From Porticoccaceae bacterium (GTDB lineage Bacteria > Pseudomonadota > Gammaproteobacteria > Pseudomonadales > Porticoccaceae): a stretch of DNA of 39,449 nucleotides. This document shows, piece after piece, positions 30,148 through 38,825 of this stretch. Position 1 is the first letter of the stretch, and the number at the start of each line of letters is the position of its first letter. Position numbers and translations under genes: made by a program. A model generated the notes under the pieces. The model worked only from the letters and a program-made list of their open reading frames with translations, ran no database searches and had not been told where the DNA came from. The stretch covers positions 1 through 39,449 of the forward strand of contig JAQXEN010000058.1 in the NCBI GenBank assembly GCA_029250825.1, given 5' to 3'.

Positions 30148-32397
30148 TCAATGCCCAGCAGCTAGGAAGTTCTCGATGTGCTGACGAATTTGCTTTACAC
30201 GCATAAGGTTTTTGTCGGCATTTAAAGAACCATAATCGGCCCTAAAGGCCTGCACCATATCCCGCAGCTCCGTCATACCATAGAGACCAGACAGCCCCAT
30301 GAGGTCGTGAACGATTTCCCGCAAGCTACCGTTCTCATTATTGATCAACTGCTCTTCAAGCTTGTCGAGACTCTGGTAGAGCGCTTTTTTAAGCTCTTCA
30401 ACGGGCACTACGGTGGAGAGTATTCCAGCCCCTCGAGGAGCTGGGGTGTCTATGGAGCGGGCCACAACCTGAGTCAGGCTATGGATCAGTTCATTCTCAT
30501 TGACCGGCTTCAGTAACAGCATTACCGCGCCAGCCTCGGTGATTCTCTCACGATCAATCATAGTGACATCGGCGGTCAAGGCAATGATCGGCGGACTTTC
30601 ACCAGACTGCTGAACTATGGTCTCACTGGCAGTAATACCATCAATAATCGGCATATGAATATCCATAAGAATCGCATCTAAATTCAGGCTGCTAGCGATT
30701 TCAATCGCCTCTTGACCATTGTTGGCTGTAAGACAGCTGGCTCCATAGCCCTCAAGTAGGCGCACAATCAACTTTTGATTAAAGGCATTATCCTCGGCAA
30801 CCAGTATCGTCGCTCCAGCTAGCACTTCATTTGGTGCCGTCCTAGCAGTGGATGCGCCAACCAAACTCTCTACATTGAGTGCATCACTTGCGCTTAATTC
30901 ACAGGTAAAGGAAAACACCGACCCTTCGCCAACTCTGCTGTGAACCTCAATTTGACCACCCATAGCCTGAACCAAATTTTTGCAAATGGACAAACCTAAC
31001 CCGGCGCCGCCGAAGCGCCGATTGATCGATGTATCCTCTTGAGAAAATGGATCAAACAGTGCCGGAATCTTTTGCTCATCAATACCTTTGCCGGTATCGG
31101 CAACCGCACATTCCAACATCACCGTGCCATCGGTATTACTGAGGCAGCGAATATCCACTTCTATAGATCCGGCATCGGTGAATTTAATGGCATTGCTTAA
31201 AAGGTTGCTGATCACCTGAATAAATCTAACCGGATCACCCACCAGTGCGGTGGGGATTTTCTCATCGATGGTGTAGTTTAAGTCCAACCCTTTCTCTTGC
31301 GCTCGCTGTCGCTGAATCGACATCAGATCGACAATCCAAGACTCAATATAAAAAGAAACTTTCTCCAGAGTAAAACCGCCCACTCGAGCTTTGGAAAATT
31401 CGAGAATATCGTCAATCATCGTTAACAACATGGTCGATGACATATTGATAATACGCAGATTTTCATCGCGTTTTTCTGTATCGGTCTCAATCGCGAGCAA
31501 TTTCGAAAAGCCAATAACAGCAGTCAGTGGTGTTCGCAATTCATGGCTCATTCTGGCGAGAAACTGATCCTGAGCTTCTATCGCTTCTTCAAGCTCAATT
31601 AAGGTTATTTGCAGCTGTGCGGTTGCCAGCGCTACTTCACTTTGCATGCGCACATTGGATTGTCGCACAGTGGTCGCTAACTGGTTGATACCCGAGGCTA
31701 GCTTGCGTACTTCGACCGGCCCATCCTCCACCGCTAAGTTGTTGAGACTCCCTGCCTCCATAGATTCAACGACCCCGGTAAGTGATTCCACCGGCCTGGA
31801 GATACTTCGTCCAATTCTCATGGATAACCAAGCAGCTATCAACAAGCCAACAGTGGAGACCAGTACAATGGCGAAAATACCTTCGCGATACTGTTTTTCG
31901 AGCATTTCATCAGTCAGTGAAACAACTACCCAACCTAAAACATCAGCACTGGCTTGCTGGCCCTCGTCATAGTCTTCGAGCGCCGACGATGTCAAAGTTA
32001 CACGAGAATAGAAGTACCAATTTTGATCGATATAGATCGGCTTACCAAACTCATAGCTATCGGGAATACCGATCATGTCACTGTCAATTTCTCCTATAGC
32101 GACACTGGTATCTTGGCTAGAATTGTAAAACAGCAATCCATTGACTGCCGGAATATCCAGCACCGACTCGCCCAAACTTACCTGCATTCCTCTATTGTTG
32201 GAGTACACCGCGAATTCAGCGTTGGCTGAAATCTGCTGCGCTGCAACAGAGCCTGTATTGTGGAGATTAGTCAGCAGCACAGTGCGCTGACTGGATATCA
32301 TGTAGCTGGCTAATACAATACAGAGCAAAGTCAGCGGCAATAGCGATGTAATGAGCATTCGTGAGTGGATGCTGGAAAATTGCTGCTTTGCCGCCAT
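30148..32397 (-). CDS. Hybrid sensor histidine kinase (HAMP-HisKA-HATPase-REC-HPt)
   Basis: This is a 749-residue inner-membrane phosphorelay kinase with a BarA-like layout. Membrane segments are at about 14-34 and 173-194, enclosing a periplasmic sensor region of about 135 residues with no recognised motif. HAMP spans about 195-248. The DHp helix carries His285 (ARMSHELRTPLTAVIGFS); the ATP-binding domain has NLLSNAIKF, DTGKGID and FGGAGLGLSI. The receiver (529-640) has Asp579 (DAILMDIHMP) and Lys630. A C-terminal HPt domain has His697 in IVHDLMGLSGLYGM. All phosphotransfer residues are intact. The ATG follows the stop codon of the binding-protein gene with no gap and is preceded by GGGAG. 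The expected final acceptor is the LuxR-type regulator at the head of this unit. Confidence 0.93.
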   Translation of the reverse strand: MAAKQQFSSIHSRMLITSLLPLTLLCIVLASYMISSQRTVLLTNLHNTGSVAAQQISANAEFAVYSNNRGMQVSLGESVLDIPAVNGLLFYNSSQDTSVAIGEIDSDMIGIPDSYEFGKPIYIDQNWYFYSRVTLTSSALEDYDEGQQASADVLGWVVVSLTDEMLEKQYREGIFAIVLVSTVGLLIAAWLSMRIGRSISRPVESLTGVVESMEAGSLNNLAVEDGPVEVRKLASGINQLATTVRQSNVRMQSEVALATAQLQITLIELEEAIEAQDQFLARMSHELRTPLTAVIGFSKLLAIETDTEKRDENLRIINMSSTMLLTMIDDILEFSKARVGGFTLEKVSFYIESWIVDLMSIQRQRAQEKGLDLNYTIDEKIPTALVGDPVRFIQVISNLLSNAIKFTDAGSIEVDIRCLSNTDGTVMLECAVADTGKGIDEQKIPALFDPFSQEDTSINRRFGGAGLGLSICKNLVQAMGGQIEVHSRVGEGSVFSFTCELSASDALNVESLVGASTARTAPNEVLAGATILVAEDNAFNQKLIVRLLEGYGASCLTANNGQEAIEIASSLNLDAILMDIHMPIIDGITASETIVQQSGESPPIIALTADVTMIDRERITEAGAVMLLLKPVNENELIHSLTQVVARSIDTPAPRGAGILSTVVPVEELKKALYQSLDKLEEQLINNENGSLREIVHDLMGLSGLYGMTELRDMVQAFRADYGSLNADKNLMRVKQIRQHIENFLAAGH

Positions 32398-33465
32398 CTA
32401 CTTGCTCCCATCTAGCAAACGTTGACGATAAAACTGTTCAGTTTCTATCGGCACATCAAGACTTGCTGCTACGGAATAATTGAAGTGCATCGAATAGTAC
32501 TTAGCCTCATAGGCGCGCCCAGTTTTATCCCTATTGACTGCATCATTGGCAATCCAATCAACCGTCTGCATAGCTACATTTTGTGGAGACGAATAGATGC
32601 CAGCAAGTGCTCCAGCCTCCACGTAAGTCCGTGAGAATGCGATTACCGGTACTTTGTGCCGATAACTGAGGTGCAGGATCCACTTCGCTGTTGCAATATT
32701 CATCAGACGACTGTCAGGCACTGGAATAAACACATCACTACTGCTTATCACCGGCTCGATCTTGGCAATAGGATTGTCTTTGGCACCCACTATGACAAAG
32801 TCTGATTCCATACCCGCATCTTCAATTGTGCCTGCCAGCTCCTCTTCGAGAATTGCCGAAGAAAGGCCCAACATGACTCCGGTCTTTTTACCCTTGGGCA
32901 AAAGGAGTTTTGCCAGAAGGATGCTGCGGCTGGTGGGCTGATCAATACAAATTGACGACACTTGGCTAGCAAATGCTTGATCGACAGACCCGAAATGTTG
33001 ACTCGCCAAGGCGACAAATGAGCTGTCGGTGATAAGAGCACTAATAATCGGGGGGCCAAGCTTGGGTTGAAGAGCCCTGTATTGATATGCGCTGTCCGCC
33101 GCTGCAGTGCCAATGGTGACAACAAGGTCAGCAGAGGCAATCGATTTAAGGGCTGTCCGCTCAGGAGCTACAGTTTCCGAGACGAACTCAATCCTGTAGC
33201 TATATTTTTCCGGAAACTTAGCCTCTAACTCCTTTTGAACCGTTGTCAGCACATCCAAGTAATCGGTTGTCGGTTTGCTCACCAAAAAAAACACATCGGT
33301 GGTATCTGCCGTCACAGAGGTTCCATACATCATTGTCACGACAAAAAGCACGGGCATCGACCAACCTGATTTTGGCCGTCTCCCACGATATGTCTTATTC
33401 TGTGACAAAGTACTTCTCATAAGTGACTCAAAAATCCACTGTAATCGACAGTTATCCCAATTCAA
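32398..33465 (-). CDS. Periplasmic substrate-binding protein, ABC_sub_bind (PF04392) type, without transporter
   Basis: This protein looks like a type 1 periplasmic binding protein of the PF04392 group: DVFFLVSKPTTDYLDVLTTVQ opens the first lobe, followed by ADLVVTIGTAAADSAY, KKTGVMLGLSSAILEEEL, DVFIPVPDSRLMN and KVPVIAFSRTYVEAGALAGIY. The signal peptide is about residues 30-54 counted from 33465; an ATG at 33420 gives a more usual N-terminus and is likely the true start. There is no ABC permease or ATPase nearby. The gene abuts the hybrid kinase gene, so I infer that it presents a ligand to the kinase sensor region rather than to a transporter. The ligand cannot be read from the sequence. 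Confidence 0.82.
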   Translation of the reverse strand: MNWDNCRLQWIFESLMRSTLSQNKTYRGRRPKSGWSMPVLFVVTMMYGTSVTADTTDVFFLVSKPTTDYLDVLTTVQKELEAKFPEKYSYRIEFVSETVAPERTALKSIASADLVVTIGTAAADSAYQYRALQPKLGPPIISALITDSSFVALASQHFGSVDQAFASQVSSICIDQPTSRSILLAKLLLPKGKKTGVMLGLSSAILEEELAGTIEDAGMESDFVIVGAKDNPIAKIEPVISSSDVFIPVPDSRLMNIATAKWILHLSYRHKVPVIAFSRTYVEAGALAGIYSSPQNVAMQTVDWIANDAVNRDKTGRAYEAKYYSMHFNYSVAASLDVPIETEQFYRQRLLDGSK

Positions 33466-33491
33466 AAATCGATACCCTATAAAGGAAAAAC

Positions 33492-35558
33492 TTAAGGCAT
33501 TGATACCTTCAAACCCAAAACATATTGGGTGTCAAATTGGTTGTAATTATAGAATTCCCTATAGGGTTCACCGACATTTTGCACGAGGAGTGACAGATCG
33601 ATATTCGAGTTAATAATAGTCCAGCGTCTACTGGCCTTGAGATCGATTCGCGTGTGGCTTCCCACGTTAGAACCCCGATAATGCTTAGTCGCCGAACGAT
33701 AAGAAGCCATGGAGCTCAAGGTGATACCCCGATCAAAGCCATAGCTGACAAGAAAGCCAGCGCCATGCTTAAGGCTATGGATTCCCAGTTCGCGAATTTC
33801 TAGTTCTGGGGGAGATGTGTGTATGGTCTCACCGTCGATATCCGAATAGCTGTAATGGGTTCGTAACAAGAAACGATCGTTGGGCCGATACTGGGTCTGA
33901 ATCTCAAATCCATTGACATTAAATGTGTCGGTATTATCGCGAATATTAACAAAATTATCGAAGTCGGGATAACCAGAGCGACGCTCATTGATAACGTCTG
34001 TTAACTGTTCGCGAAAGAGCCTCATATCAAAACTCAACTTGCGATCCAACAGATAACCTAGGTAGCCAACCTCGATACTTCTAAGCCGCTCATTGTTAAT
34101 CTCGCCATCTGAGATAACGCTGGCATCAAGAATAATGTTTTCATTGTAGCGAACAAGCTGTTCTTGCTGGCTCTCTAAGAGGGTCGGCGATCGAAAGCTG
34201 CGGTTAAAGGCTACCCGCAGCGTATGCTCAGGATAGAGTTGATAATTACCCGCTACACGATAGGAAAAGTAGCTGTCGGCACTGTCCTTTTTCTCCAGCA
34301 CCAACCCGCCGTTGAGAACCAATCTATCAGACTGGGTCAACTCAAGATTAGTGTAGACACGGTGCGATGTCTCACTCAGTGACTCAGGTCTGTCGAACAG
34401 CTCCTGTCCCTGAACCCGGTCATAGCGCACTGCAACCCCGGTTACCGCTCGTAGATTATCCAGGGGGTTGAGTATGGCGCGTAGCTCAACATCCCAGCGC
34501 TCGGATTCGAATCGATCAGTATCATCAATCACTAACTTGTCCGGTAGGCCAGGAAGTGGCCAGCTCGGTGAAGTATCGGGGATGCCCAGAGCATCAGAGA
34601 GAAGTAGCGGCATTGTCTCATCGGTTAGATCCATATCATTGTGATATAGAAGCATTTGCAGCTCGCCACCACTGACCATCAAGCGGCTCCAATTAATATA
34701 TTGGTATTTGTAGCGGACATTGCGCGGGAAATATTCCCGCTCGCCTATGCCTAAATTACTGTCACTGATCCCCGCCTGAAACTCAAAACTGTCGCTGGCA
34801 TTTGGAGTCCACAGGCCCCTAAATGTGGCGCTGAAATTTTCCGAGCTATCATCGGCGCTAACCGGCTGCCCCAGATCAAAGGAATCATCAAAACCCTGGT
34901 TGCTGCGAAAGCTTAGAGTAGTACGGTGATTCACCGGCCCCAGAGCACCGGTATAAGCAAGGTTTGCATTGCGTATATTGTCACTGCCTAGCTGAGAATT
35001 CATCATCCAACCGCTATCAACTAAGGGCGATCGAGTGACAATATTTATCGATGCCAAGAAAGCATTGCTACCATCGGCCGAAGCATTGGCACCACGGACA
35101 ATTTCAACATACTCAATATCATCCAATGTGACGCCAATAACTGACCAATCGACTGCTGAGAAAAGTGACTCATAAACCGAGCGGCCATCCACCTTAACCT
35201 CGAGACGCCGAGGATACTCATCGCCAAGAGCATGATAGGTAGTTCCCATCCTGCTGCCATCGACAAAATAGGTCTGAAATCCCGGCACCAAACGAAACAA
35301 ATCTATTACACCCAGTGCAGTAGAGGCCTGAATAGTCTGGCGATCGATAATAGTCACTGACGCCGGTGTCTGAGCCGGAGTTTGATCCATATGAGTCGGA
35401 CCTTTAACACGCGGGATTTCAACCAGAAAATCATCTTCGGTGAGTACAGCTTGAGCCGCAATTGCTGGCGGTTCTGCAGACAAAACATTGACTGCTACTG
35501 AGCCTAACAACGCCAACCAGGTAAGTCTTTTAGCCGCGCCGAGTAGAGCAGAGAACAT
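33492..35558 (-). CDS. TonB-dependent outer-membrane receptor
   Basis: This 688-residue receptor has a signal peptide (about residues 1-28, ending LSA), a possible TonB box near EDDFLVEIP (40-48), a plug domain (about 58-165: TPASVTIIDRQTIQA, VIDLFRLVPGFQT, YVEIVRGANASADGSNAFLASINIVTR in pieces), and a beta-barrel to the C-terminus. The last residues are LGLKVSMP; the usual terminal Phe is missing and replaced by Met-Pro. The barrel is short for siderophore receptors. No FecA-like N-terminal signalling domain or FecI/FecR pair is present. It starts 22 bases after the response regulator gene with AAGGG upstream. It could import or simply admit the molecule sensed by the binding protein and kinase. 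Confidence 0.92.
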   Translation of the reverse strand: MFSALLGAAKRLTWLALLGSVAVNVLSAEPPAIAAQAVLTEDDFLVEIPRVKGPTHMDQTPAQTPASVTIIDRQTIQASTALGVIDLFRLVPGFQTYFVDGSRMGTTYHALGDEYPRRLEVKVDGRSVYESLFSAVDWSVIGVTLDDIEYVEIVRGANASADGSNAFLASINIVTRSPLVDSGWMMNSQLGSDNIRNANLAYTGALGPVNHRTTLSFRSNQGFDDSFDLGQPVSADDSSENFSATFRGLWTPNASDSFEFQAGISDSNLGIGEREYFPRNVRYKYQYINWSRLMVSGGELQMLLYHNDMDLTDETMPLLLSDALGIPDTSPSWPLPGLPDKLVIDDTDRFESERWDVELRAILNPLDNLRAVTGVAVRYDRVQGQELFDRPESLSETSHRVYTNLELTQSDRLVLNGGLVLEKKDSADSYFSYRVAGNYQLYPEHTLRVAFNRSFRSPTLLESQQEQLVRYNENIILDASVISDGEINNERLRSIEVGYLGYLLDRKLSFDMRLFREQLTDVINERRSGYPDFDNFVNIRDNTDTFNVNGFEIQTQYRPNDRFLLRTHYSYSDIDGETIHTSPPELEIRELGIHSLKHGAGFLVSYGFDRGITLSSMASYRSATKHYRGSNVGSHTRIDLKASRRWTIINSNIDLSLLVQNVGEPYREFYNYNQFDTQYVLGLKVSMP

Positions 35559-35580
35559 ATGAAGCCCTTTTTATTATTAT

Positions 35581-36252
35581 TTAATTACTGGCGTCGGCAT
35601 TTTCATCAAGGCCCAGCTTCTGGCCCAAAATACCTGCCTGAGTTCGATTGGCTAAACCTAGAGCGCGGAGCATGGCACTGACGTGAACTTTTACCGTGTT
35701 TTCCGATAGATCTAGATCTCGAGCGATCTGCTTATTTGACCGACCCTGAGTGATATGACGCAGGATATCCATCTGCCGCTTGGTCATCAGTCCAGCGATA
35801 ATATCCACATCTGCTCCGGAATCGACCTCATCGATTACTTTGGCCACATCCGGCATGGCTTCACGCAGGGACATAGGTATGTACTTCTCACCTTTTAATG
35901 CGCGAGAAATAGCCTCAAACAAAGCGTCTTTGGGAGCAGATTTTGTAACAAACCCAATAGCGCCAAAATCCAAGCATTTACGGATATGGGCCGGATTTTC
36001 AGAAGCCGAGAGAACAATGACAGGAAGGGTGGGATAACTTTCACAAAGCATGGCGATAAAGTTAAAGCCACCCCCTGCCCCGGGCATAAATAAATCGACA
36101 ATAACCAGATCGATGGTATCACGAGCGAGGATTGTTAACGCGGTATCACCGTGATCTGTGGTGGTGACATCAATGCCCTTGTACTCCTCGAGCAGTGTCG
36201 CCTTAAGTCCGACGCATACAAACGCGTGGTCATCAACTATCAGAACGTGCAT
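35581..36252 (-). CDS. LuxR-family (NarL-type) response regulator
   Basis: This 223-residue regulator has an N-terminal receiver domain with the acidic pair Asp7-Asp8, phosphoacceptor Asp53 (DLVIVDLFMPGAGGG) and Lys in GFVTKSAP, then a C-terminal GerE/LuxR helix-turn-helix (about 150-212: LTKRQMDILRHI-like MTKRQMDILRHITQGRSNKQIARDL, SENTVKVHVSAMLRAL). It is the first gene of the receptor/binding-protein/kinase unit and is the likely output of the phosphorelay. AAGGA lies eight bases upstream of the ATG. A -10 box TATTAT (36324-36319) is about 65 bases upstream with a weak -35. Confidence 0.93.
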   Translation of the reverse strand: MHVLIVDDHAFVCVGLKATLLEEYKGIDVTTTDHGDTALTILARDTIDLVIVDLFMPGAGGGFNFIAMLCESYPTLPVIVLSASENPAHIRKCLDFGAIGFVTKSAPKDALFEAISRALKGEKYIPMSLREAMPDVAKVIDEVDSGADVDIIAGLMTKRQMDILRHITQGRSNKQIARDLDLSENTVKVHVSAMLRALGLANRTQAGILGQKLGLDENADASN

Positions 36253-36431: not shown

Positions 36432-36602
36432 CTACAATTCACTCAAGGCGAGGGATATTTGTGCCTGCAGCGAAGCATCAGATGATGCCAAGTCTCTAGC
36501 TCGCAGCAATGATTTCTTGGCTTCATCCTGACGCCCTAATCGGCTTAATCCGACACCATGATGATAGTGAAAAACCGCTATTGCTGGCGCAACTTCGATC
36601 AC
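36432..36602 (-). pseudogene. C-terminal remnant of a TPR-repeat protein
   Basis: From GTG at 36602 to TAG at 36432 there are 56 codons with a TPR-like sequence: FHYHHGVGLSRLGRQDEA, then KKSLLRARDLASSDASLQ and the final LALSEL. The upstream frame is closed by a TAG four codons earlier, and no more TPR sequence is visible before it. It therefore looks like the last repeat of a longer protein whose rest was lost. The neighbouring sugar transferase and CTERM protein suggest a TPR component of an exopolysaccharide/exosortase locus (for example the PrsT type), but one repeat is not enough to name it. Confidence 0.55.
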
Positions 36603-36676
36603 CTTTCCTCTCTAATCCTTCAGTTTAGTGTAGACCTTATTGCTCCCTTGAGAAGCGGCCGGTCCCCGGTCAATTA

Positions 36677-37492
36677 TTAGTAAGCATTTTTGTTCAGAAA
36701 CCCACCAAAGGCAGTCATCACAATCAATTTAATATCCAGCCACAGAGACCAACTGCGGATATATTCGAGATCATATTTGGTCCGCCCTTCCATCTTTGCC
36801 AGTGTGTCCGTCTCGCCGCGGTAACCCTTGATCTGGGCCAGACCGGTAATGCCGGGTTTGACTTTGTGACGGAGCATGTAGCCATGAATTGCGGTGCGGT
36901 AGAACTCGTTGTGAATAATCGCATGAGGTCGCGGTCCCACGATGGACATGGTGCCGCTGATAACATTTAGAAACTGGGGCAATTCATCCACTGAGGTCCT
37001 GCGCAAGAACCCGCCGAACGGGGTAATGCGGCTGTCGCCTTTGGATGCCTGAACAAGGTTTTTATCTCCCGCATCCATAACGGTCATGGTTCTAAATTTC
37101 CAAACGGTTATGGGTTCGCCGCCAATGCCATAACGCTGCTGCCGAAAGAGCACCGGCCCCTTGGAGGTCAGCTTTATGCCGAGGGCAATCAGTAACATGG
37201 GAATAACAATCAGCCCCAAGATCATGCTCCCGGCAACCAAATCAAGGGAGCGTTTAGCAAAATTATCCAGACCAGTATGGGGTGACTCAAAGACACTAAT
37301 TGCCGGCATCCCCTGAATGTCGAGCCAACTGGCGGTGAGCAGATCAAAGCTAAATAGATCGAGCATCATGAAGGCAGAGACGGTGGTGTCGGCCAATTCA
37401 TTAAGCAGCAGCTTGATGCGTTGTTCGGCGGCCAGGGGCAGGGTAATAAAGATGGTGTCTATCTTACCGGCCTTGGCCTGTTGAATAAGTTC
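36677..37492 (-). pseudogene. Undecaprenyl-phosphate sugar phosphotransferase (WcaJ type), C-terminal part
   Basis: This is the catalytic part of a polyprenyl glycosylphosphotransferase, continuous in frame with the segment at 37493-38089 but separated from it by TAA (37495-37493). It reads ELIQQAKAGKIDTIFITLP, GMPAISVFESP, one membrane helix (MILGLIVIPMLLIALGIKL) and the bacterial sugar transferase domain: GPVLFRQQRYGIGG, WKFRTM, RRTSVDELPQFLNVI, MSIVGPRPHA, VKPGITGLAQIKGYRGET. Such enzymes load the first sugar phosphate onto undecaprenyl phosphate for exopolysaccharide. A shortened product could start at TTG 37396 or a later ATG, keeping the whole catalytic domain, but no Shine-Dalgarno is seen. 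All catalytic motifs look intact, so the lesion is recent, suppressed or an error. Confidence 0.85.
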
Positions 37493-38089
37493 TTAGGAGC
37501 CACCTTTAATAAGGCTTGAGTCGGATATAAAGCGACGAGTGCCATTGGTTTTGCGATCATCAAAATAACCGACAAAATTGTATCCGGACCAGGGCATATG
37601 TTGAATGCGACCCTCGAGACCAGCGCCCAACTCAGTGGCGCCATAGATAGCTACCGATTGAGCACGCACCCCAGTATCGCGAAACAGGCGCAAGACCATT
37701 CGCAAGATGGAGTGCCAAGAGATAAGTTCTGTGGGTGTCAGTACAAACCAATAAAAGACCATCTCGCGGTTGTACAGATCGGAGGGGTGGAAGATCACAT
37801 CGACTAAAACAAGAACAAAAACAATCGTCAGCCAATTGCTGCCTACGCCAATCACCTCGGCGCGAAGACTGATATCCCGCCATGACTTACTGTGACTGGA
37901 CTCAGAGAGAAAGCTAAATAGCACAATGGCGATCAACAGCAACCAGCTGTAAAGCGGCACCCAACTGAGTTTTAGTACCGACACTAAAGCCACCAGAGTG
38001 CAGCCTATAATCGCCGCGTCAATAAGGCGAGAAAAGGCGTTAATCTTGGCGTCGTGGCGACGTACCATCCTTGATAATTGATCGGCCAT
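37493..38089 (-). pseudogene. Undecaprenyl-phosphate sugar phosphotransferase (WcaJ type), N-terminal part ending at an in-frame TAA
   Basis: This 198-codon segment encodes the non-catalytic membrane half: four hydrophobic segments (about residues 24-45, 48-64, 85-103 and 110-125) and the start of the CoA-binding-like cytosolic domain (VRAQSVAIYGATELGAGLEGR, YNFVGYFDDRKT). It ends SLIKGGS-stop, and the next in-frame codons, ELIQQAKAGKIDTIF, are what the family has after this point. With the TAA read as Gln or Glu the gene would be 36677-38089, 470 residues, the usual length for WcaJ/EpsE-like enzymes. The start ATG at 38089 has no clear Shine-Dalgarno; an ATG seven codons in has AAGG near it. 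Confidence 0.85.
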
Positions 38090-38206: not shown

Positions 38207-38796
38207 CTACTGCTTTGATGATTTTCGAAGACCAGCCAAACCTAACAAGCCAGATAAGAATAACCAAGCCGCTGCGGGGAGTGGTGCTTCAGCTACAGCC
38301 CATTCAGTGTAGTGGGACACATCGTGATCACCGCCCACGATGACCTCTACCGTTTCACCTGGACTTCCATCGCCATCAACCAGATATAACCAGACTAAGG
38401 TTGAGGCTTTAATGGTCAAATAACCGGAAAAATCAGCGGCAATATTAAACGACTTACCGCTAAAACCATTCTCAGTTTTGTCACCGGCTAGACTGGGAAT
38501 TACGACTCCTTCAAAGGCCAACATATTGAGCATATCCGGATCTGCGTGATCCTGTGCTGTGCCGACATTGCCGTTCGCGCCATAAAACTGGTTGGCACTA
38601 ATATCGCTGATATCACCAGCTGAAATTGAGCCTCCGCAAGCATTGGCACAGAATAGCTGATCGGCCACGCCATTATCTGCGGCATCAGCATCTACGCCGT
38701 CTGGACTCCATATTGCCAGCAGGTCAACGCTGCCAGCATGGGCGGTATTTAGCGATAATAACCCTGCAAAAGGGTCGCTAGTAGTGTTATTTTCAT
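38207..38796 (-). pseudogene. VPLPA-CTERM (exosortase-sorted) secreted protein, frameshifted in the signal peptide
   Basis: The C-terminus PLPAAAWLFLSGLLGLAGLR followed by KSSKQ is a VPLPA/PEP-CTERM sorting tail: short motif, hydrophobic helix, basic end. It is recognised by exosortase in known systems. The body (about 150 residues) has no family I recognise; it holds a Cys pair (LFCANACGG) and an Asp/Gly-rich beta-type composition. The true start is ATG 38796, with AAGGAAG five bases upstream, encoding the signal peptide MKITLLATLL. The frame is lost near 38765. One base more (TTGGCAGGG for TTGCAGGG) would continue with GLLSLNTAHAGSVDLLAIW into the body. As it stands translation stops after 15 codons, unless it starts again at GTG 38668. 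No exosortase gene is in the window. Confidence 0.8.
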
Positions 38797-38825
38797 GATG
38801 TCTTCCTTGGAGGTCTCTCCCTAGG

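Follow-up and report, generated by a model that had tools for sequence, protein, structure and literature searches.

Gene content of the locus

The analyzed window was a stretch of 39,449 nucleotides (nt) from a Porticoccaceae bacterium (GenBank assembly GCA_029250825.1, contig JAQXEN010000058.1, positions 1 to 39,449 of the forward strand). In it we studied a unit of four genes that encode a LuxR-type response regulator, a TonB-dependent receptor, a periplasmic binding protein of the PF04392 type, and a hybrid kinase resembling BarA and GacS. An earlier interpretation made without database searches (the sequence-only reading) had described these genes as one envelope-spanning sensory unit with gaps of 22, 26, and 0 nt. 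The four minus-strand open reading frames (ORFs) are present and intact with these gaps, and the start of the binding-protein gene needs to be moved. Their features are the following:

35581..36252, minus strand: LuxR-type response regulator of 223 amino acids (aa); Pfam Response_reg and GerE; phosphoacceptor Asp53 at 36094-36096
33492..35558, minus strand: TonB-dependent receptor, 688 aa; Pfam Plug and barrel, no STN match
32398..33420, minus strand: PF04392-type periplasmic binding protein; likely ATG start at 33420
30148..32397, minus strand: BarA/GacS-like hybrid kinase, 749 aa; Pfam HAMP, HisKA, HATPase_c, and REC
31882..32292, minus strand: periplasmic sensor of the kinase (residues 36-172), single Cache-type fold
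32212..32217, minus strand: Glu61-Phe62 of the kinase, part of an EYGxxSGN-like motif of binding-protein-linked sensors (sensor comparison)
31972..31974, minus strand: Asp142 of the kinase, an acidic residue in a loop, missing from 13 of the 16 sensors that have no binding protein (alignment)

The longest ORF of the binding protein (32398-33465, 355 aa) has a TTG start. Because several relatives begin at the ATG at 33420, this codon is probably the start, and the gap between the receptor and binding-protein genes would therefore be about 71 nt, comparable to the 70 nt in the relative L035 (L and G numbers denote loci and genomes). The assignment to PF04392 did not hold for the window protein by itself, which scored 18.9 bits against a gathering score of 25.9, and it held at the level of the family: a profile built from 19 relatives matched the PF04392-type structures 3lkv (3e-12), 3lft, and 6hni, and the binding protein of L123 reached 51.2 bits. 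The most conserved residues were DQPxxR, D251, S278, AGA 284-286, and N329; in our reading of the fold, they appear to sit at loops and helix starts typical of its cleft. A plasmid search with the binding protein gave no match.

The kinase has the layout transmembrane segment (TM), single Cache, TM, HAMP, HisKA (His285), HATPase, REC (Asp579), and an HPt-like segment with His697. Of the domains previously named, HAMP and REC were recovered in Pfam; HPt, like Cache, had no Pfam match in the window kinase, and both sCache_4 and Hpt were matched in the kinase of L123. The sensor fold matches CitA and LuxQ. The phosphoacceptors that had been predicted are in place, with His285, Asp579, and His697 invariant across 17 aligned kinases and Asp53 of the regulator read by eye. 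The Pfam matches, the sensor fold match, and the invariant His697 give the window kinase the domain set of a BarA/GacS-type kinase.

Conservation of the receptor, binding protein, and sensor kinase

Our results showed that the trio of receptor, binding protein, and sensor kinase is conserved. Within the family, 60 of 98 genomes searched encode the binding protein, and these represent 11 of the 14 genera. Among 20 family loci, a receptor lay at most 700 nt upstream in 19, a sensor module at most 200 nt downstream in 19, and the regulator was found in 10; the exception, L048, lacked the receptor, had a split kinase, and was scored as a miss. In a profile search across the class, 81 of 370 genomes, from 66 of 273 genera, were positive for the binding protein, the window's genome counted, and the best locus from each of the 80 other genomes formed the class set. 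In this set, a TM-Cache-TM-HAMP sensor followed within 200 nt in 69 loci, with outputs that were hybrid kinases (63), GGDEF/EAL proteins (4), or truncated or unclear (2). The receptor was upstream in 55 of the 80 loci, and receptor and sensor were both present in 51. The upstream regulator was found in nine, four of which also had the receptor. Of the 70 loci whose upstream sequence extends 2.3 kb or more, 52 had the receptor. A 4-nt overlap between the binding-protein and sensor genes is common.

A set of 32 loci from named genomes, drawn with one sequence pattern, had the sensor module in all 32 and the receptor in 28, and included Chromatiales, Ectothiorhodospiraceae, Methylophilaceae, Gallionella, and Porticoccaceae records. 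It is not independent, because at least five contigs are in common with the class set. The class loci hold 222 other genes located over 4.6 kb away from the binding-protein gene; none matched the receptor or kinase profile, and a chance neighborhood was rejected on this basis.

The distribution was followed across the genus in 36 genomes, of which 22 have both receptor and binding protein and 14 have neither; one without the other was never seen (Fisher p=3e-10, uncorrected for kinship and with genomes partly incomplete). Regulator and kinase were found together in 25 genomes; the regulator was never alone, and the kinase was alone once (G080, at a contig edge). Three further genomes had kinase remnants only (L213-L215). 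In this pattern of gain and loss, receptor and binding protein therefore behave as one accessory unit, and kinase and regulator behave as the core pair. Co-occurrence with the kinase is strong in the class, family, and genus counts.

Two further arrangements were seen. In L134:4884-7284 and L158:6009-9405, the protein after the binding protein is a weak kinase match and possibly represents other output types. In L046 and L047 of genus g6, a second receptor gene stands immediately upstream of the first; in L046 it is in pieces.

Relationship of the kinase to BarA and GacS

By sequence comparison, the window kinase is a divergent relative of BarA/GacS. It is colinear with Escherichia coli BarA, with 29% identity over 699 aligned positions from residue 9. 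With the BarA model (NCBIfam NF008318, an equivalog with a curated cut-off of 890 bits), it scored 404.7 bits, and because it falls short of this cut-off and sits at another locus, we term it BarA-like and not BarA. Relatives were also under the cut-off (L095, 796 bits; L108, 738; L123, 682), and six class kinases ranged from 626 to 796 bits. The kinase of G379 reached 919.6 bits, above the cut-off; this genome has the binding protein and lacks the receptor gene. Of 24 binding-protein genomes tested with the model, 20 had their best BarA match in the kinase beside the binding protein.

In E. coli the gene order is relA, rlmD, barA. We found that 43 of the 80 class loci have one or more of eight marker genes nearby (relA, rlmD, an exonuclease gene, cysM, acpS, pdxJ, recO, and era), 23 of them with such markers on both sides. 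Either rlmD or relA lies near 26 of the 80, and a marker accompanies 31 of the 51 full trios; in L123 six marker neighbors were confirmed by Pfam. None of the 20 family loci has a neighborhood of the relA/rlmD/cysM/acpS type, the window kinase being at another locus. Among 20 BarA-type loci without a binding protein, cysM is beside L225 and L227-L231, four of which also have rlmD, acpS, or pdxJ, and relA is beside L222; these seven short loci gave no binding-protein or receptor match. The same neighbors thus stand beside both kinds of kinase, so one locus exists with and without the binding protein.

A FastTree phylogeny of 121 kinase cores placed the window kinase and E. coli BarA in one clade of 87 tips (support 0.75), which holds 70 other binding-protein-linked kinases; a further 16 class kinases linked to a binding protein were placed elsewhere in the tree. 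E. coli BarA forms a group (support 0.92) with L222 and L223, which have no binding protein, and with L100, L109, and L149, which have a binding protein and no receptor. Among 70 genomes of the class draw that lack the binding protein, 16 had a BarA-model match at E<=1e-140, and ten of the loci yielded a full sensor. GacS (5o7j) was a weak sequence match to L123 (E=0.06) and was absent among the 50 fold matches listed.

The sensor region follows the binding protein

We compared the sensors of 11 kinases with and five without a binding protein. At a kinase-core identity of 0.52-0.57, sensor identity was 0.28-0.39 among kinases that have a binding protein, as against 0.12-0.14 among kinases that lack one, in a comparison that uses overlapping pairs and few independent losses. 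Position 61-62 of the sensor is [ED][FY] in 112 of 127 sensors with a binding protein. Within the class, this motif was present in 64 of 74 sensors with a binding protein vs. 1 of 16 without, the one being E. coli BarA (p=1e-9), and an acidic residue (D/E) stands at 142 in 64 of 74 vs. 3 of 16 (p=3e-7). No usable sensor was obtained from 17 of 159 loci, and among the 16 sensors without a binding protein, L237 and L239 are possibly not BarA orthologues. The GGDEF/EAL variants have only the sensor-HAMP part in common with the kinases; motif and D142 were found in 8 of the 10 examined, L111 having Val at 61 and L132 Asn at 142. Both the divergence of the sensor and the link of the motif to the binding protein are expected if the partner of the binding protein is the sensor.

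In a joint AlphaFold model of binding protein and sensor, sites 61-62 lie at a helix break and 142 in a loop. From the order of elements, we would place these sites at the membrane-distal end of the sensor.

Transporter genes and sigma factors

The sequence-only reading had named one observation that would speak against it, ABC permease or ATPase genes beside homologous binding proteins. A search for such genes was negative: the co-directional gene runs of 72 of the 80 class loci, those in which the ORF caller kept the binding protein, contain no ABC ATPase pattern. Of the Pfam families assigned to 70 neighbors in these runs, the 25 commonest, with 42 more ranking below them, include no ABC ATPase or permease family. 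The window genome had two PF04392 matches in total, both under the cut-off: the gene described here and the frame of a second hybrid kinase. With its binding-protein gene beside the kinase and no transporter genes detected in the adjoining runs, the unit has the gene arrangement of LuxPQ and TorTS.

FecIRA-type signaling also uses a TonB receptor. The distinction drawn earlier between that type and this unit holds, as neither a sigma nor an anti-sigma gene lies in the unit or among the flanking genes that were read. By Pfam the receptor has only Plug and barrel and no STN domain, so it lacks both marks of a FecA-type transducer, an N-terminal STN and neighboring sigma/anti-sigma genes. FecIRA-type signaling was rejected on these grounds.

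A second unit in the window genome

A second linked unit occurs in the same genome (L004). It consists of a TonB receptor, a frame that joins a PF04392-like stretch (21.9 bits, below the cut-off) to a hybrid kinase, and a GGDEF/EAL receiver protein. The joint frame (L004:5913-9683, minus strand) is real in the assembly and likely has a signal peptide. We rejected it as proof of a binding protein-kinase partnership, given that its start codon is unclear (no standard start codon precedes the signal peptide), that basic residues precede the first membrane helix, and that in L216-L219 the binding-protein gene is apart, with the kinase in a frame of 1,491 to 1,531 aa. The binding proteins of L216-L219 were recognized by likeness to L004, and only that of L219 matched the profile, weakly. 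L004 was counted only as a second linked unit. This unit, the wide spread of the gene set, and the likeness of the kinase to BarA/GacS had escaped the sequence-only reading, which in other respects stood in part.

The partner regulator

Of 26 genomes searched, 25 have CsrA, the window's among them; the exception is G463. With a threshold of E<=1e-30, UvrY/GacA was not found in six genomes, namely the window's, three others from the same genus, and two of g6 (G000, G010, G074, G076, G005, and G017), all of which have the operon regulator. G029, of the window's genus, had a weak match of 114 bits. Each of the other 19 genomes searched had a match at this threshold, 11 of them over the cut-off, the weakest being 131 bits (G463). 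UvrY was present in G053, G022, and G018, members of the same family without the operon regulator; in G022 it adjoins a gene that by eye resembles uvrC. Because UvrY was not found in these six genomes with the operon regulator and is present in family members that lack it, the operon regulator may have replaced UvrY/GacA in this genus. The best model for the window regulator was ErdR (124 bits, cut-off 390), with UvrY at 84 bits.

Proposed mechanism and alternatives

We consider it likely that the unit is a three-compartment sensor, a TonB-fed and binding-protein-gated version of BarA/GacS signaling. This reading builds on the genes as observed and their order, which is conserved; on receptor and binding protein being present or absent jointly; on the Cache-type fold of the sensor and the intact relay residues; and on the negative search for adjacent transporter genes. 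The TonB receptor would actively import a scarce outside molecule into the periplasm, where the PF04392-type protein would capture it in its conserved cleft. The binding protein may then dock on the membrane-distal end of the Cache sensor, through motif 61-68 and the acidic loop at 142. By analogy with LuxP on LuxQ, docking would shift the balance between kinase and phosphatase. Phosphate would pass from His285 to Asp579, His697, and finally Asp53 of the LuxR-type regulator.

Several observations weigh against this reading. The receptor was missing within 700 nt upstream in 25 of the 80 class loci, and in 18 of 70 when at least 2.3 kb of upstream sequence was available. Conversely, L119, L127, and L139 carry receptor and binding protein and have no kinase match, so the pair can live apart from the kinase. 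(In these loci the pair adjoins genes resembling trmO, fabA, and fabB, as judged by eye and from the Pfam tally.) Kinase and regulator stay without receptor and binding protein in G081, G082, G086, G090, G009, and G020; the last two belong to genus g10, the kinase frame being broken in G009 and the gap in G020 containing a stretch of N. The window kinase lies below the BarA cut-off, and the second-unit kinase outscores the trio kinase with the BarA model in four genomes of the window's genus (G000, G010, G029, and G074). According to PMC8639471, E. coli BarA answers acetate through its own Cache pocket. G362 and G145 have the operon regulator and a UvrY match elsewhere; therefore, replacement of UvrY is not general.

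The evidence for docking on the kinase, on which the mechanism centers, is indirect. Besides the overlapping pairs of the sensor comparison, two g6 kinases with a binding protein have a sensor identity to the window of only 0.21 and 0.23, at core identities of 0.44 and 0.45. The confidence of the joint AlphaFold model (pLDDT 94.3, pTM 0.72) was rejected as proof of contact because the interface was not seen. In a distance-correlation (mirror-tree) test with 53 of 100 loci, the partial correlation between binding protein and sensor was 0.23, reached by 12 of 1000 permutations, and fell to 0.02 given the receptor. The test was rejected as proof because all genes of the unit correlate.

An alternative that we regard as unlikely is that receptor and binding protein are an uptake pair feeding a permease encoded elsewhere, that kinase and regulator control them, and that the kinase senses directly. 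It agrees with the tight covariation of receptor and binding protein, the closest of all (partial correlation 0.60, class loci), with the three loci that have the pair without the kinase, with the six relatives that keep the kinase without the pair, and with the direct sensing of acetate by E. coli BarA. However, the 72 class gene runs gave no ABC ATPase pattern (permeases were not searched for genome-wide), and the only two PF04392 matches of the window genome are both kinase-linked. In addition, the sensor drops the motif and diverges once the pair is lost, and the overlap of the binding-protein and sensor genes is common.

We think it very improbable that the receptor itself generates the signal in the manner of FecA, contacting the binding protein or the kinase once loaded, with the binding protein as a ligand-free go-between. 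The receptor-sensor distance correlation of 0.42 vs. 0.23 for binding protein and sensor favors such a route, but the receptor has no STN match, and the conserved residues of the binding protein appear to lie at typical cleft positions. We give as little credence to the binding protein being an inhibitor, which holds the kinase off until ligand frees it or removes the Cache ligand of the kinase: kinases without a binding protein survive with fast-changing sensors, as expected from relaxed control, but activation and inhibition are not separated by these data, and the idea differs from the three-compartment sensor mainly in sign.

Comparison with known systems

BarA/UvrY and GacS/GacA pair a hybrid kinase that has one Cache sensor with a LuxR-type regulator and act through Csr/Rsm. 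The unit resembles them in the domain order of the kinase, the Cache-type sensor, membership of the same clade, and the location of class relatives at the same locus. It differs in having receptor and binding-protein genes as the apparent input and the regulator in the operon, and the window kinase is without the extra receiver-like stretch of longer relatives. LuxP-LuxQ, TorT-TorS, and XylFII-LytS are kinases read through a periplasmic binding protein (PMC6321045). They share with the unit a binding protein beside a hybrid kinase with a Cache-like sensor, and the binding protein and sensor studied here match the structures of LuxP and LuxQ, respectively. Here, in contrast, the binding protein is of the PF04392 family, a TonB receptor is the outer-membrane entry, and the contact is a predicted one.

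NspS-MbaA, a binding protein with a c-di-GMP receptor, resembles the GGDEF/EAL variants L096, L106, L111, and L132 and six named loci, mostly Methylophilaceae/Methylophilales, but in these the binding protein is of the PF04392 type and a TonB receptor is usually present. With FecIRA the unit shares a TonB receptor in signaling; it differs in using a phosphorelay, with no STN match and no sigma/anti-sigma genes. The PF04392 binding proteins of ABC systems (3lft with L-Trp, 3lkv, and CD0873, 6hni/6hnj) differ in that no permease or ATPase was found beside the genes studied here, and in residue 180, a conserved Arg in our binding proteins and Gln in the aligned 3lkv and 3lft. The combination of receptor, PF04392 protein, and BarA-type kinase was not described in the titles and abstract openings that literature searches returned, subscription papers and preprints aside.

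Neighboring genes and possible targets

Three features lie upstream of the unit:

36435..36608, minus strand: 58-aa remnant of a PrsT-like TPR lipoprotein, upstream of the regulator (tblastn, 84% identity to the L035 protein)
36677-38089, minus strand: undecaprenyl-phosphate glucose phosphotransferase (wcaJ), split into two ORFs that share a frame (tblastn, query protein from a relative)
38207-38809, minus strand: VPLPA-CTERM-like secreted protein, upstream of the unit (24.7 bits, cut-off 25.35)

The tblastn alignment spans the break in wcaJ (81.5% identity over 336 aa), so the break is an in-frame stop or an assembly error. The regulator of the relative L039 has a gene for XrtD, a VPLPA-CTERM exosortase (544 bits, cut-off 400), close by, and L035 and L043 carry PrsT-like genes that score under the respective cut-off. 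Because of this exosortase locus, and with the three window features listed above, surface polysaccharide and VPLPA-CTERM proteins are plausible targets of the regulator, judged by neighborhood.

Implications for BarA/GacS signaling

The natural signal of BarA/GacS-type kinases has long been sought, and the ligands of GacS are given as unknown in PMC7695008. If the three-compartment reading is true, TonB import is joined to phosphorelay signaling without a sigma factor. If many BarA-type kinases own a receptor and a binding protein, the signal could be found with a soluble, purifiable protein and not with a membrane kinase. More tentatively, and with doubt prevailing, BarA/GacS may ancestrally have been a three-compartment sensor of one shared TonB-imported molecule, from which E. 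coli BarA, and perhaps Pseudomonas GacS, derived by loss of the receptor and then of the binding protein. Should this be so, the long-sought GacS-type signal would be readable from the ligand of these binding proteins.

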